Assembly (NCBI RefSeq): GCF_002795825.1
Contig: NZ_CP018800.1
Span: 1,920,001 to 1,984,000, forward strand
DNA from: Mariprofundus ferrinatatus
Lineage (GTDB): Bacteria; Pseudomonadota; Zetaproteobacteria; Mariprofundales; Mariprofundaceae
DNA length: 64,000 nucleotides
Direction of reading: 5' to 3'
Part shown: piece by piece, positions 39,429 to 44,285 of the stretch
Layout: each line of letters begins with the position of its first letter
How positions within the stretch are numbered: position 1 is the first letter of the stretch
Position numbers and translations under genes: made by a program
Notes under the pieces: model-generated
Told to the model about the DNA's origin: nothing
The model's database searches: none
What the model saw: the letters and a program-made list of their open reading frames with translations, nothing else

Positions 39429-40685
39429 TTGGGCACCTTCAACATCAACCTGCATGAACTTGTTTACAGCCTCTCGGATGCACTGGATCTGGTGGGCGTC
39501 GTGCAAATCCACCACGGCAAACGTGTCGGGTTTATGGCAGCCGAGTGTGGCAAGCAGATGGGGCTGGATTCAACCACCCTGGACAGCCTGTTTCAGGCGG
39601 CAATCCTGCATGACTGCGGTGTATCCAATACCTCAGTACACGCACGCCTCGCCCAGTTCGAGTGGGAACAGGTGCATGGCCACTGTGAAATTGGTGCCGG
39701 CCTGCTGGCCATCACTCCGCCGCTGGCCCACCTTTCTGATGTCATTCTGCATCACCATACACACTGGTCCACCCTGAAAACACTGGACCTTCCGGACGAT
39801 ATTGCCCTGATGGCCAACCTGATATTCCTCGTTGACCGTGTTGATGTCCTCTCCCTGCAGGCGCAGGTCAAAAACGCCAATATCCTGCTCGGCATGGATG
39901 ATGTTATCGCCAGAATTGTCGAGAAACGGGGGAGCTGGTTTAACCCCAATATCGTCGATGCCTTTCTGGAGGTTGCCCGCTCAGAGTCATTCTGGCTTTC
40001 ACTTGAGAGGGAGCATGTCGACGGTTACGTCTACGAGTGGTTCTCACACGAAACCACACGCCCGATCAAATTCGAGGATGTAAAAAGCCTGGTGAAAATA
40101 TTCTCCCATATTGTCGATGCAAAAAGCCCGTTCACATTCGAACACTCGCAAGGAGTAGCCAGCCTCTCGCGACATCTGGGCGAGCTGTTTGAAATTCCGG
40201 AACACAATTGCGACATGCTCGATCTGGCAGGGTTACTGCATGACATCGGCAAACTCAGGGTGCCCGACAATGTGCTGGAGAAACCGGGCAAACTTTCCAA
40301 CTCCGAATTCAGAACCATCCAGCGCCACAGCTTCGATACATTCAATATCCTGAAAAAGATTCGCGGCTTCGGCGAAATCGCACAGTGGGCCGGCCAGCAT
40401 CATGAACGGGTGGATGGCGGCGGCTACCCCTACCACGCCAAAGAGAGCAGCCTCTCCCTGGAGGCGCGCATTGTTGCCGTAGCCGATGTTTTTCAGGCGC
40501 TGGCACAGGATCGCCCTTATCGACCCGCTATGACACCATCCCAGATCATTGAAATTCTGGAAGCCGATTCGGATGCCGGCAAACTGGATCGCAATGTGAT
40601 CGGCATGGTGAAGAATAACATTGAATCCTGCTGGAAGAGGGCAACCCTGCAGGAGGATGTAGCGGCCGATGCCGTCCCAGCTTAA
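39429..40685 (+). CDS. HD-GYP domain protein with a degenerate N-terminal HD repeat
   Basis: The 418-residue product has a C-terminal HD-GYP domain (about 225-405) with HDIGK (271-275) and HHERVDGGGYP (324-334), the hallmarks of cyclic-di-GMP phosphodiesterases. The N-terminal half carries a second, looser HD-like module: HHGKRVG (28-34), HDCG (61-64) and HHHTHW (108-113). It starts at a TTG codon with AGGAGG six bases upstream. No signal peptide or receiver domain is seen, so input comes through the N-terminal half or partners. A GATAAT box lies upstream but without a good -35. Confidence 0.9.
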   Translation: MGTFNINLHELVYSLSDALDLVGVVQIHHGKRVGFMAAECGKQMGLDSTTLDSLFQAAILHDCGVSNTSVHARLAQFEWEQVHGHCEIGAGLLAITPPLAHLSDVILHHHTHWSTLKTLDLPDDIALMANLIFLVDRVDVLSLQAQVKNANILLGMDDVIARIVEKRGSWFNPNIVDAFLEVARSESFWLSLEREHVDGYVYEWFSHETTRPIKFEDVKSLVKIFSHIVDAKSPFTFEHSQGVASLSRHLGELFEIPEHNCDMLDLAGLLHDIGKLRVPDNVLEKPGKLSNSEFRTIQRHSFDTFNILKKIRGFGEIAQWAGQHHERVDGGGYPYHAKESSLSLEARIVAVADVFQALAQDRPYRPAMTPSQIIEILEADSDAGKLDRNVIGMVKNNIESCWKRATLQEDVAADAVPA

Positions 40686-40689
40686 GGCC

Positions 40690-40758
40690 ATGCTTATCTT
40701 GGCCATGACAGAAACCAAGGCGACCCGAGATATGTTGAACAGAGCGGCAACGCATTGA
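40690..40758 (+). other. Possible 22-codon leader ORF
   Basis: An ATG at 40690 (second in-frame ATG at 40732) opens a reading frame ending in TGA at 40756-40758. The TGA overlaps the TTG start of the binding-protein gene (TTGA). The spacing suggests translational coupling, since the TTG lacks its own ribosome site. The short peptide itself is unremarkable and may not be made. Confidence 0.2.
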
Positions 40759-41708
40759 TCACCAGAACGGCATTGGCCTTTTCACTGGCCATTCTCTTCT
40801 CTTCACCTGCTATGGCGGCGAAATGCCTCTATATCTCCTCGTATCACCAAGGTTATGAGTGGAATGACGGCATTGAGCGCGGCATCGAAGCGGCACTGAA
40901 GGAGCGATGCGAACTGGACAGGTTCTATCTGGACACCAAGCGCAACAAGAGTGAAGCCTTTGGTAAGGCGATGGCGCTGAAGGCCAAAACATACATTGAA
41001 GAGAGCAATCCGGATATCCTGATTGCAGCCGATGACAACGCCTCACGCTACCTGATAGAGCCCTACTTCAGAGATGCAGAAATACCTGTTGTATTTTGCG
41101 GCATCAACTACTCGGTCGAGCCCTATGGATACCCCTACTCCAATGCGACCGGCATGATTGAGATATCGCCGGTTCGCCCGCTGCTGAAGTATGTAAAAAA
41201 CAGCCTGCCGCGATTAGGGAAGGGTACTTTCCTGGCAGCAGATGTGATCTCCCAATACAAGGAGTTTGAACTTAACCGGGAGGTTTACGAAAGCAGTGGC
41301 ATTCGGCTCACGCCTGTGTTCGCCAAGAACATGGAGGAGTGGATCGCAGCCTATCGCAATGCACAGGATCAGGCCGATTTTGTCATCATCGGCAACAATG
41401 CCGGCATTGAGGATTGGGATGATGAGAGAGCCACAAAGCTTGTAGTTGAAGAGGGAGGGCTTCTTTCGGTAACCAACTATGACTGGATGAGCCGCTATGC
41501 ACTTCTTTCTGTTACCAAACTTGCTGAAGAGCAGGGCGATTGGGCTGCCAGGACAGCCATCGCTGTCCTTGAAGGCACTGAGATAAGCACCATCCCCATC
41601 ATTGTGAACAGGCGCTGGAGGCTACTCATCAACACATCATTGATGGAGAAGAGCAATATCAGGCTGCCGCAGGCCATTATCACCAAAGCGATTCGGATCA
41701 GCCTGTAG
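40755..41708 (+). CDS. Periplasmic ABC-type binding protein (orphan)
   Basis: The 317-residue product has a signal peptide ending PAMA-AKC and the architecture of ABC_sub_bind-family proteins: ISSYHQGYEWNDGIERGIEAAL opening, LIAADDNASRYLIEPYF and IPVVFCGINY. No permease or ATPase gene is near. Its stop is directly followed by the ATG of a hybrid kinase with a sensor region in the periplasm, so a ligand-presenting role to that kinase is inferred. TTG is the predicted start and no ribosome site is seen; it may depend on the upstream mini-ORF. Confidence 0.8.
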   Translation: MITRTALAFSLAILFSSPAMAAKCLYISSYHQGYEWNDGIERGIEAALKERCELDRFYLDTKRNKSEAFGKAMALKAKTYIEESNPDILIAADDNASRYLIEPYFRDAEIPVVFCGINYSVEPYGYPYSNATGMIEISPVRPLLKYVKNSLPRLGKGTFLAADVISQYKEFELNREVYESSGIRLTPVFAKNMEEWIAAYRNAQDQADFVIIGNNAGIEDWDDERATKLVVEEGGLLSVTNYDWMSRYALLSVTKLAEEQGDWAARTAIAVLEGTEISTIPIIVNRRWRLLINTSLMEKSNIRLPQAIITKAIRISL

Positions 41709-44285
41709 ATGAGGGCTTTCACCACCAACAGGGCACTCTATTTTGCACTGACTGCCGGCGTGCTGGTCACCGGCCTGCTGCTCATGCTTGCATACAACAA
41801 GCTGGTAGCCGATACGGAGAACCGCTTCCTCGAAGAGTCTGCGCAGATCAGGGAGCAGCTGCTGCTGCTGAACCTGCATGCCAACGAGCTGGCCGATAAT
41901 ATAAGCGCCCTGTTTCACGCCTCCGACTATGTGGAGCCGGACGAATTCCAGGTTATCGCTGAAGAACAGTTACAGCATTACCCCTATATTCACTCCGTTT
42001 CATTTCACCCTCAGGTATCAAACACGGATATCGAGGTGTTCGAGAAAGAGATGCAGGCAGCCGGCTTTGTGACATATGCTGTGCGCAGCAGAACGCCTGC
42101 CTCGGATGGCAGCGCCTTTCCCGTAAAGTTTATCGAACCACTGACGCCTCAGAATGCAACGCTGCTGGGGCTGGACATGGCAACTGTTGACCGCTTCGGG
42201 CCTCACATCAGCAAGGCTATCCATGCCGGAGCCGTTACCGCATCCTGTTTTGAAAAGCTGGCGAACGGCGATGTCGTCTTCTCGCTCTTCAAGCCACTCT
42301 TCGCTGACAAAGCCCCGTCCGGCAGCGGCGCGGAGAGAGAAAACACCAGCGGCATGATTGCCGTTCAGGTGAGTGCAAAAGCCATGTTGGGCGAAGTGTC
42401 GCTGCCGCGCGGTTTCCGTCTGTCATGGAGCATTGTCGATATTTTTCATCCAGACAAGCCTGATGAAAATTCCCTATGGGCAGGCAACGCCCCGGAGCAG
42501 GGCCGCCACCTCTTGTTCAAAACCCTGCAGAGTGAATCCACACTCGATTTTGAGGCGGTCAGCTCCACACTTGTTTTCGAGAAAGAGATCTATTGGCAGG
42601 ACATTGAATACCAATACCCGCTTGCAGCTCTGGTTGCCGGACTGATCCTGACCCTGTTGCTGCTGTTTGCAGCCCGCAGTTTCGAGTTGAGAGACAGGGA
42701 GCTTAAGCAACGCAGTGAGGAGATCGAACGACAGGTCAGAAAACAGACCCGGAACCTTCTTGAGAGTGAAGCAAGATTGAATGAGGCCCAGCGAATCGCC
42801 TGTGTTGGCAACTGGGAGCTCAACCTCGCAACAAACACACTCACTTGGTCGGATGAAATCTTCCGGATTTTTGAAATCGACAAGGAACGGTTTGGCGCCT
42901 CCTACGAAGCATTTATTGAAGCGATCCACCCGGACGACCGGGAGCTTGTCAATGCAAAGTATACTGCTTCAGTGAAAAGCAGGATCCCTTATGATGTGGA
43001 GCACCGGCTCCTTTTCAGCGATGGCAGGGTTAAATATGTGCACGAGCACTGCCAGACATTCTATGACGCCGAAGGAAACCCAACCCGATCAACCGGCACA
43101 GTGCAGGACATCACCGAACGCAAGGAGCTTGAAGAGAGGCTGCTTCAGTCGCAAAAGATGGAGGCGATCGGCACTCTGGCTGGCGGGATCGCCCATGACT
43201 TCAACAACACACTGGCCGCCATTCAGGGCAACCTCTACCTGGCGAAAAAACAGCTGGATGACAAAGAGCTGCTTGCCTCCAAGTTGAACAACATCGTATC
43301 ACTAAGCGAGCACGCTGCGGAGATCGTCAGACAACTGCTCACATTTGCCCGCAAGGATATTGTGACCCACCAGCCGTTTTCCCTCACCTCGTTATTGAGA
43401 ACCGAGCTTTCTCTCTTCAGAAGCATCATTCCTGAGAACATCGATTACAGCATTGAACTGTGCGACGAGGAGCTGAACGTACTGGGAGACTCCACCCAGC
43501 TGCAGCAGGCACTGGTCAATCTGCTTAATAATGCGCGGGATGCCGTACGCAATACAGAGCAGCCCAAGATCAGCTTCACGCTTGAACCGTTCAGTATCAA
43601 CACAGGCTTTCAGCAGAAACACCCTGAAATCCAGGGGGACGGAGTTGCCCATCTGATCATAAGAGATAATGGCAGCGGCATACCCGCAGCCACCCTTGAA
43701 CACATTTTTGAACCGTTTTATACAACCAAGGCAGTCGGTGAAGGTACCGGGCTTGGTCTGGCCATGGTCTATGGCTCAATTCAGACGCATGGTGGCGCGG
43801 TTGACGTTGAGAGCAGCGAAGGCAAGGGCACAACATTCCATATATACCTGCCACTATGCCAGAAAGATGGGAAGCAAACCGACAAGCCTGAGACCCCCCC
43901 GGTTGCGGGCGAAGGGGAAACCATCCTTCTTGTTGATGATGACGATGATGTGCGCAGTACAACCTGTGAAGTGCTTGAGAGCATGGGTTACAGGGTGTTG
44001 ATAGCATCAGACGGGCAGCAGGGGCTGGATACCTTTGATGCATACCAACATGAAATCGACCTCATTATCAGTGATGTTGTGATGCCGAAAATGGGCGGCA
44101 CCGAATTTTCCCGCAGAGCGAAAGAGCGTGTTCACGATATCCCTGTCATTCTCATAACCGGCTATGATGAACGGCAGGTAGCGGATATCCAGGATGACCT
44201 CGGCGATATCGAGTTGCTTCAAAAACCAATCTCATACCCCCTGCTTAGCCAGACACTGAGGAGTCTTCTCGGCTCCGGAAAATAA
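41709..44285 (+). CDS. Hybrid histidine kinase: CHASE-like sensor, PAS, HisKA, HATPase, receiver
   Basis: The 858-residue protein has a first membrane helix (about 9-29), a periplasmic CHASE-like sensor (about 35-300), a second membrane helix (303-322), a coiled linker and a PAS domain (about 360-470). The dimerisation domain follows with His496 in GGIAHDFNN, then an ATP domain with NLLNNARDAV and DNGSGIP plus GEGTGLGLAM. The receiver domain has Asp789 (SDVVMPKMGG) and its acidic LVDDDDD start. The ATG follows the binding-protein stop with no gap. A partner response regulator is not in the window. Confidence 0.93.
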   Translation: MRAFTTNRALYFALTAGVLVTGLLLMLAYNKLVADTENRFLEESAQIREQLLLLNLHANELADNISALFHASDYVEPDEFQVIAEEQLQHYPYIHSVSFHPQVSNTDIEVFEKEMQAAGFVTYAVRSRTPASDGSAFPVKFIEPLTPQNATLLGLDMATVDRFGPHISKAIHAGAVTASCFEKLANGDVVFSLFKPLFADKAPSGSGAERENTSGMIAVQVSAKAMLGEVSLPRGFRLSWSIVDIFHPDKPDENSLWAGNAPEQGRHLLFKTLQSESTLDFEAVSSTLVFEKEIYWQDIEYQYPLAALVAGLILTLLLLFAARSFELRDRELKQRSEEIERQVRKQTRNLLESEARLNEAQRIACVGNWELNLATNTLTWSDEIFRIFEIDKERFGASYEAFIEAIHPDDRELVNAKYTASVKSRIPYDVEHRLLFSDGRVKYVHEHCQTFYDAEGNPTRSTGTVQDITERKELEERLLQSQKMEAIGTLAGGIAHDFNNTLAAIQGNLYLAKKQLDDKELLASKLNNIVSLSEHAAEIVRQLLTFARKDIVTHQPFSLTSLLRTELSLFRSIIPENIDYSIELCDEELNVLGDSTQLQQALVNLLNNARDAVRNTEQPKISFTLEPFSINTGFQQKHPEIQGDGVAHLIIRDNGSGIPAATLEHIFEPFYTTKAVGEGTGLGLAMVYGSIQTHGGAVDVESSEGKGTTFHIYLPLCQKDGKQTDKPETPPVAGEGETILLVDDDDDVRSTTCEVLESMGYRVLIASDGQQGLDTFDAYQHEIDLIISDVVMPKMGGTEFSRRAKERVHDIPVILITGYDERQVADIQDDLGDIELLQKPISYPLLSQTLRSLLGSGK

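Follow-up and report, generated by a model that had tools for sequence, protein, structure and literature searches.

Sensor kinases that work with a periplasmic binding protein are already well known. In the autoinducer-2 (AI-2) system of Vibrio, LuxP carries the ligand and the periplasmic domain of the hybrid kinase LuxQ reads it; this domain, according to excerpts of one source, has a double-PDC fold and does not itself bind AI-2 (PMC8534201). Here we describe a gene pair of the same anatomy in a 64,000-nucleotide stretch of the Mariprofundus ferrinatatus genome (NZ_CP018800.1, positions 1,920,001 to 1,984,000; hereafter the window), in which the gene for an ABC_sub_bind (PF04392) periplasmic binding protein is followed by the gene for a hybrid sensor kinase with a periplasmic CHASE (PF03924) domain. 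The pair differs from LuxP-LuxQ in both of these families, the CHASE domain being nearest to PcrK and AHK4, and in that receptors of the window type swap outputs, some ending in kinases and others in GGDEF-EAL. The trimethylamine N-oxide system TorT-TorS and the XylFII-LytS system likewise combine a binding protein with a sensor kinase, and the fold of the window protein matches both TorT and XylFII; their sequence families, however, are distinct from those of the window pair, and the TorS sensor is described in the same excerpts as all-helical and not CHASE (PMC8534201). AioX-AioS and the related arsenic-sensing binding proteins differ in both binding-protein family and ligand. In Pseudomonas aeruginosa, the gene for the binding protein PA4985 likewise lies near that for AruS, a kinase whose periplasmic domain bears the CHASE name, but the excerpted description assigns this domain to another family, CHASE5, and PA4985 to SBP_bac_8, and reports that a two-hybrid test saw no interaction between the two (PMC11113362). 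PcrK and AHK4, the best fold matches of the window CHASE region, are solved receptors described with small ligands, and the structure listings name no binding-protein partner for them. A 2022 review of cyclic di-GMP (c-di-GMP) sensing, in the portion available, treats CACHE-like domains (including the CHASE families) and binding-protein domains as separate sensor classes (PMC8846402). Listings from an open-licence library and the excerpts consulted there gave no report of a dedicated binding protein for a PF03924 CHASE receptor, subscription papers lying outside that search.

We propose, with a probability of roughly 0.6, that the pair is a portable module resembling LuxPQ and TorTS: a small ligand is bound by the binding protein, whose state the partner's CHASE domain then reads. 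In the window, open reading frames (ORFs) and Pfam matches define a run of three genes on the + strand, encoding an HD-GYP protein, the binding protein and the CHASE hybrid kinase (Table 1). The last two abut with a gap of zero, the TAG stop codon of the binding protein occupying 41706-41708 and the ATG start codon of the kinase following at 41709. This is the row that had been described earlier from the letters alone, an HD-GYP gene, an orphan binding protein and a zero-gap CHASE-PAS hybrid kinase, and coordinates and Pfam matches agree with it. The earlier note had also found no cognate response regulator in the window, and this stands: the genome, a single contig of 2.30 Mb, has 74 Response_reg matches, and the only one in the window is the receiver of the kinase itself.

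To examine the prevalence of the pair, we collected 25 loci: 13 from a family search, 10 more from a search of genome contigs, one from a phylum search (genome G160, locus L066) and one as a second copy in genome G401 (L160). The loci of G053, G044, G156 and G203 are the same as L015, L016, L023 and L025, and each was counted once. An intact CHASE receptor, scoring over the Pfam cut-off, lies immediately downstream of the binding-protein gene at 18 of the 25 loci, with a gap of -14 to +2 bases. Grouped by shared neighbour genes, these 18 pairs represent 10 genomic settings, and on these counts chance adjacency was rejected. The earlier note had looked to co-occurrence across genomes for a check, and the two genes do not stand consistently apart in relatives. 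Of the other loci, three (L025, L029 and L036) are truncated at a contig end or are fragments close to one, and four are exceptions (L017, L018, L020 and L026), among them a Desulfamplus protein of 27% identity (L026:4826-7801) that unites binding protein, PAS, kinase and REC in one chain and has no Pfam CHASE match. Conversely, none of the 32 other CHASE genes examined has a neighbour matching the binding-protein profile.

The outputs of the receptors vary while the binding protein and CHASE domain stay, and this is the strongest argument that CHASE is the partner of the binding protein. Kinases account for 14 of the 18 linked receptors: nine end in a kinase with one REC (window, L015, L016, L027, L030, L031, L032, L034 and L035), three have a kinase without REC (L024, L028 and L033), and two carry kinase-REC-REC-Hpt (L023 and L066). 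The other four have a GGDEF-EAL output (L019, L021, L022 and L160), suggesting a direct input into c-di-GMP turnover in some relatives of the sensor. One gammaproteobacterial genome (G401) holds two different pairs (L160:4308-7990 and L019:6932-11279), both ending in GGDEF-EAL.

The two partners have matching phylogenies. Pairwise distances between binding proteins and between receptor fronts (335 residues) are correlated over the 18 pairs (r = 0.83), and with close pairs removed the correlation persists over 13 non-redundant pairs (r = 0.69), no value as high arising in 20,000 permutations in either case. Because the permutation leaves shared species history in, this correlation shows co-inheritance and not contact. 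The binding-protein and receptor trees concur on well-supported groups; in both, the second copy of G401 clusters with L021 and L022, and G060, labelled as belonging to the genus of the window, clusters with other genera.

The domains and folds of both partners are of periplasmic type. The binding protein, whose named close relatives are from Mariprofundus, with L016 from Mariprofundus erugo, matches PF04392 at 44.5 bits (curated cut-off 25.9) and has a predicted N-terminal signal peptide at about residues 1-22, with no lipobox. Its model (predicted local distance difference test, pLDDT, 89.5, from 12 sequences) is best matched by CD0873 (6hnj; Z 26.4, root-mean-square deviation (rmsd) 3.1, 279 residues aligned), placing it in the two-lobed TrpX/CD0873 type, followed by 3lkv (Z 23.7) and 3lft, which holds L-Trp (Z 23.4). 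TorT of TorS-TorT (Z 16.8) and XylFII of XylFII-LytSN (Z 16.5) rank lower, intermixed with many transporter proteins and LacI-type regulators. The CHASE region of the kinase, flanked by two hydrophobic stretches, matches PF03924 at 76.4 bits (cut-off 25), and its model (pLDDT 80.9, from 8 sequences) is nearest to PcrK (6k62; Z 24.3, rmsd 2.9, 242 residues aligned) and then AHK4 (Z 22.8), the following row dropping to 16.9. LuxP and LuxQ chains are not among the best 50 structure matches of either model, which excludes nothing.

Conservation in the binding protein is concentrated at its cleft. In this fold the positions right after beta-strands form the cleft, and invariant residues are enriched there (30 of 100 positions, compared with 23 of 193 elsewhere; Fisher p = 2e-4). 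The invariant residues include C24, C52 and 13 that are W, Y, F or H. Across the pairs, binding proteins have a mean identity of 48% and receptor fronts one of 23%, and this difference, together with the clustering of invariant residues, suggests that one conserved ligand may be common to the binding-protein group. Among solved relatives whose ligand is named, the nearest is 3lft with L-Trp, so the ligand here is perhaps amino-acid-like, which is a guess by analogy. The ligand of CD0873 we take to be tyrosine.

In the mechanism that we infer for docking, signal direction and phosphorelay, the binding protein would be exported and catch a small ligand in its strongly conserved cleft, and its ligand-bound (or ligand-free) form would dock on the periplasmic CHASE domain of the partner. 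The CHASE domain would read this ligand-dependent state and signal it across the membrane to PAS domain and kinase, changing kinase activity as LuxP does for LuxQ; the kinase would then phosphorylate its own receiver and an unlinked partner. That ligand capture may be read by the periplasmic domain of the kinase had been suggested from the window alone, and adjacency across swapped outputs, matched phylogeny, pairs that are split but present and joint decay of the two genes are in favour of it. The chances are about even that these receptors form a distinct CHASE subfamily that has lost, or has always lacked, direct ligand sensing, serving as a docking platform for a dedicated ABC_sub_bind protein, with a front end that plugs into histidine kinases or c-di-GMP enzymes. 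Reading of a CHASE subfamily through a soluble binding protein would mean that the ligand could be sought in standard screens of the soluble protein, and that the same ligand would apply to the kinases and c-di-GMP enzymes sharing the front end. It would provide a concrete sensing input for Mariprofundus and relatives, and show how the signalling output of a system can change with its extracellular sensor retained.

The limits of the link were investigated using profiles. A CHASE profile of the paired receptors scores these at 161-235 bits; 29 of the 32 other CHASE genes score no higher than 82 bits, and the remaining three, which lie outside the profile, reach 173-177 bits. These three belong to the L017 and L018 genomes, for which a longer profile (A3) gives 256-266 bits to receptors of the same subtype. 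Across 398 genomes of the phylum, 13 CHASE matches reach at least 292 bits and all lie behind a binding-protein gene, these being rows of the profile itself that match by construction. Six cases were held out of the profile (two genes in G398, one in G399, the second copy in G401, and one each in G206 and G166), and all have some binding-protein link. The receptor of G206 (280 bits) is directly behind a binding-protein gene of 88 residues of which only the front and end remain, and that of G166 (264 bits) is directly behind decayed remnants of one. Within the close CHASE subgroup the association is tight, and immediately beyond it there is none; a divide at about 220 bits, chosen after the scores were seen, separates linked from unlinked receptors.

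Some split and broken loci were recorded in their own right. G398 has two CHASE receptor genes of the paired type arranged back to back (L094, contig C10, both strands) without an adjoining binding-protein gene, and the single binding-protein gene of this genome is on another contig; in split genomes of this kind, a single binding protein might act in trans on two CHASE receptors. The broken binding-protein genes are in two Magnetococcia genomes (L151:405-668, 88 residues with the middle lost; L152:3720-4006, remnants).

Several observations weigh against reading by the CHASE domain. Most CHASE proteins have no such binding-protein partner, and CHASE receptors in G093, G113, G175 and G119 (167-207 bits) lack an adjoining one, with no binding protein found anywhere in these four genomes at E 1e-30. 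Among the exceptions, the gene ahead of the binding protein in L017 and L018 encodes a soluble PAS kinase and there is no adjoining CHASE gene, while the gene upstream of that in L020 encodes PAS-GGDEF-EAL, its front cut by the contig end, and there is no CHASE match in that genome. Co-inherited neighbours raise mirror-tree values even without contact. The receptors of G206 and G166 are intact beside their broken binding-protein genes, suggesting that CHASE may act alone. In Pseudomonas, the binding proteins adjoining AgtS and AruS (CHASE5) did not bind them in the assays used, as far as the excerpted account goes (PMC11113362).

The last two points also speak for separate sensing, in which CHASE binds a small ligand of its own, as AHK4 does, and the binding protein concentrates or delivers this ligand or is merely co-expressed. 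The CHASE domains of AHK4, whose fold the window domain shares, bind cytokinins directly according to structure titles (3t4j, 3t4k and 3t4s). Yet the CHASE side averages 23% identity against the 48% of the binding protein, as if ligand specificity belonged to the latter, and only five columns are invariant among 17 CHASE regions. We regard separate sensing as unlikely.

A single c-di-GMP signalling operon of HD-GYP protein, binding protein and kinase, extending the earlier note's suggestion of c-di-GMP turnover as an associated output, is improbable. The window and G043 both have the three genes on one strand, and a Nitratidesulfovibrio vulgaris plasmid carries a remote relative in which the genes for binding protein, kinase, response regulator and REC-HD-GYP are consecutive. 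The HD-GYP protein has a strong HD_5/HD Pfam match (5e-46), with HDIGK at residues 271-275 and HHERVDGGGYP at 324, but has no Pfam receiver domain. Among 74 family genomes, it is found in 10 (E 1e-60 or better) and the binding protein in 13, with only four carrying both; the HD-GYP gene adjoins the pair in two of these (G000 and G043) and is on a different contig in the others (G044 and G053). Three of the six genomes with HD-GYP and no binding protein were examined (G046, G050 and G051), and all three have a DHH-like gene, HD-GYP, radC and glutamate dehydrogenase in the order of the window, without the pair. The pair hence seems to have been inserted as a unit of two genes, with HD-GYP an incidental neighbour, and we rejected HD-GYP as part of the unit; the suggested output through this neighbour is not supported. 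In G050 the gap between HD-GYP and radC (L098:7694-10046) holds other small genes where the window has the pair, and this gap may be an insertion spot. The HD-GYP protein has two HD-type stretches by Pfam, the first without a GYP motif, and the same holds in 10 of the 74 family genomes at E 1e-60 or better.

That the binding protein is a transporter component, its permease and ATPase encoded elsewhere and the adjacent kinase only regulatory, is very improbable: by name PF04392 is a family of ABC transporter binding proteins and solved relatives are annotated likewise, but this is the sole PF04392 match in the genome, its neighbours in the window are HD-GYP, the kinase, RadC and glutamate dehydrogenase with no cognate ABC permease or ATPase gene beside it, no transporter family has at least two members among 48 proteins neighbouring the pairs (among the matches listed, 25 of 78 families), and in 10 settings the protein travels with receptors and not transporters, all in keeping with the absence of transporter genes noted earlier.

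Table 1. Features of the binding-protein and receptor locus (positions in the window).
Feature	Positions	Strand	Basis
HD-GYP protein, 418 aa; adjoins the pair, outside the conserved unit	39429-40685	+	Pfam, motifs, neighbourhood comparison
22-codon ORF in another frame; its TGA and the TTG start codon of the binding protein overlap	40690-40758	+	sequence reading
ABC_sub_bind (PF04392) periplasmic binding protein, 317 aa, TTG start	40755-41708	+	Pfam, fold model, hydropathy
Hybrid sensor kinase, 858 aa, TM-CHASE-TM-PAS-HisKA-HATPase-REC (TM, transmembrane)	41709-44285	+	Pfam, hydropathy
First transmembrane stretch, residues 8-34	41730-41810	+	hydropathy
Periplasmic CHASE domain, residues 74-249	41928-42455	+	Pfam, fold comparison
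Second transmembrane stretch, residues 299-327	42603-42689	+	hydropathy
PAS_3, residues 378-465	42840-43103	+	Pfam
HisKA, residues 488-550; candidate phospho-His H496 in AHDFNN	43170-43358	+	Pfam, motif
HATPase_c, residues 593-716	43485-43856	+	Pfam
C-terminal receiver, residues 739-849; candidate phospho-Asp D789	43923-44255	+	Pfam, motif

Distant homologues of the binding protein have other partners, suggesting that CHASE pairing is confined to the close group, and binding proteins outside this group were ruled out as the same system on account of these differing partners. The N. vulgaris plasmid row (L172:4956-10754), in which a distant ABC_sub_bind protein is accompanied by a dCache-PAS kinase, a response regulator and REC-HD-GYP, is possibly a parallel system with a real HD-GYP link. 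A weak ABC_sub_bind homologue on a Vibrio cyclitrophicus plasmid (L173:4917-7753) is followed by a PAS-GGDEF-EAL gene and lies beside an integrase gene, and another Vibrio has a divergent kinase gene by a distant homologue. For the Aeromonas caviae homologue, none of the listed flanking ORFs is a sensor gene, and no CHASE neighbour was seen for three Magnetococcia homologues (E 1e-31 to 1e-38), one of them (L179) on a contig of 3.4 kb. In two Magnetococcia loci the homologue is just behind (L178) or near (L180) a gene of about 615 aa, with a similar front in both. A mobile plasmid origin of the window binding protein was rejected, the best plasmid match being only 27% identical.

A sequence scan between the genes of the window gave no promoter-like site and no useful terminator, an outcome that says nothing either way. 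The start of the binding-protein gene had previously been set at 40690; an ATG is present there in a different frame, and the first listed start in the frame of the binding protein is the TTG at 40755. The short out-of-frame ORF that begins with this ATG may be translationally coupled to the binding protein, as its overlapping stop codon suggests.

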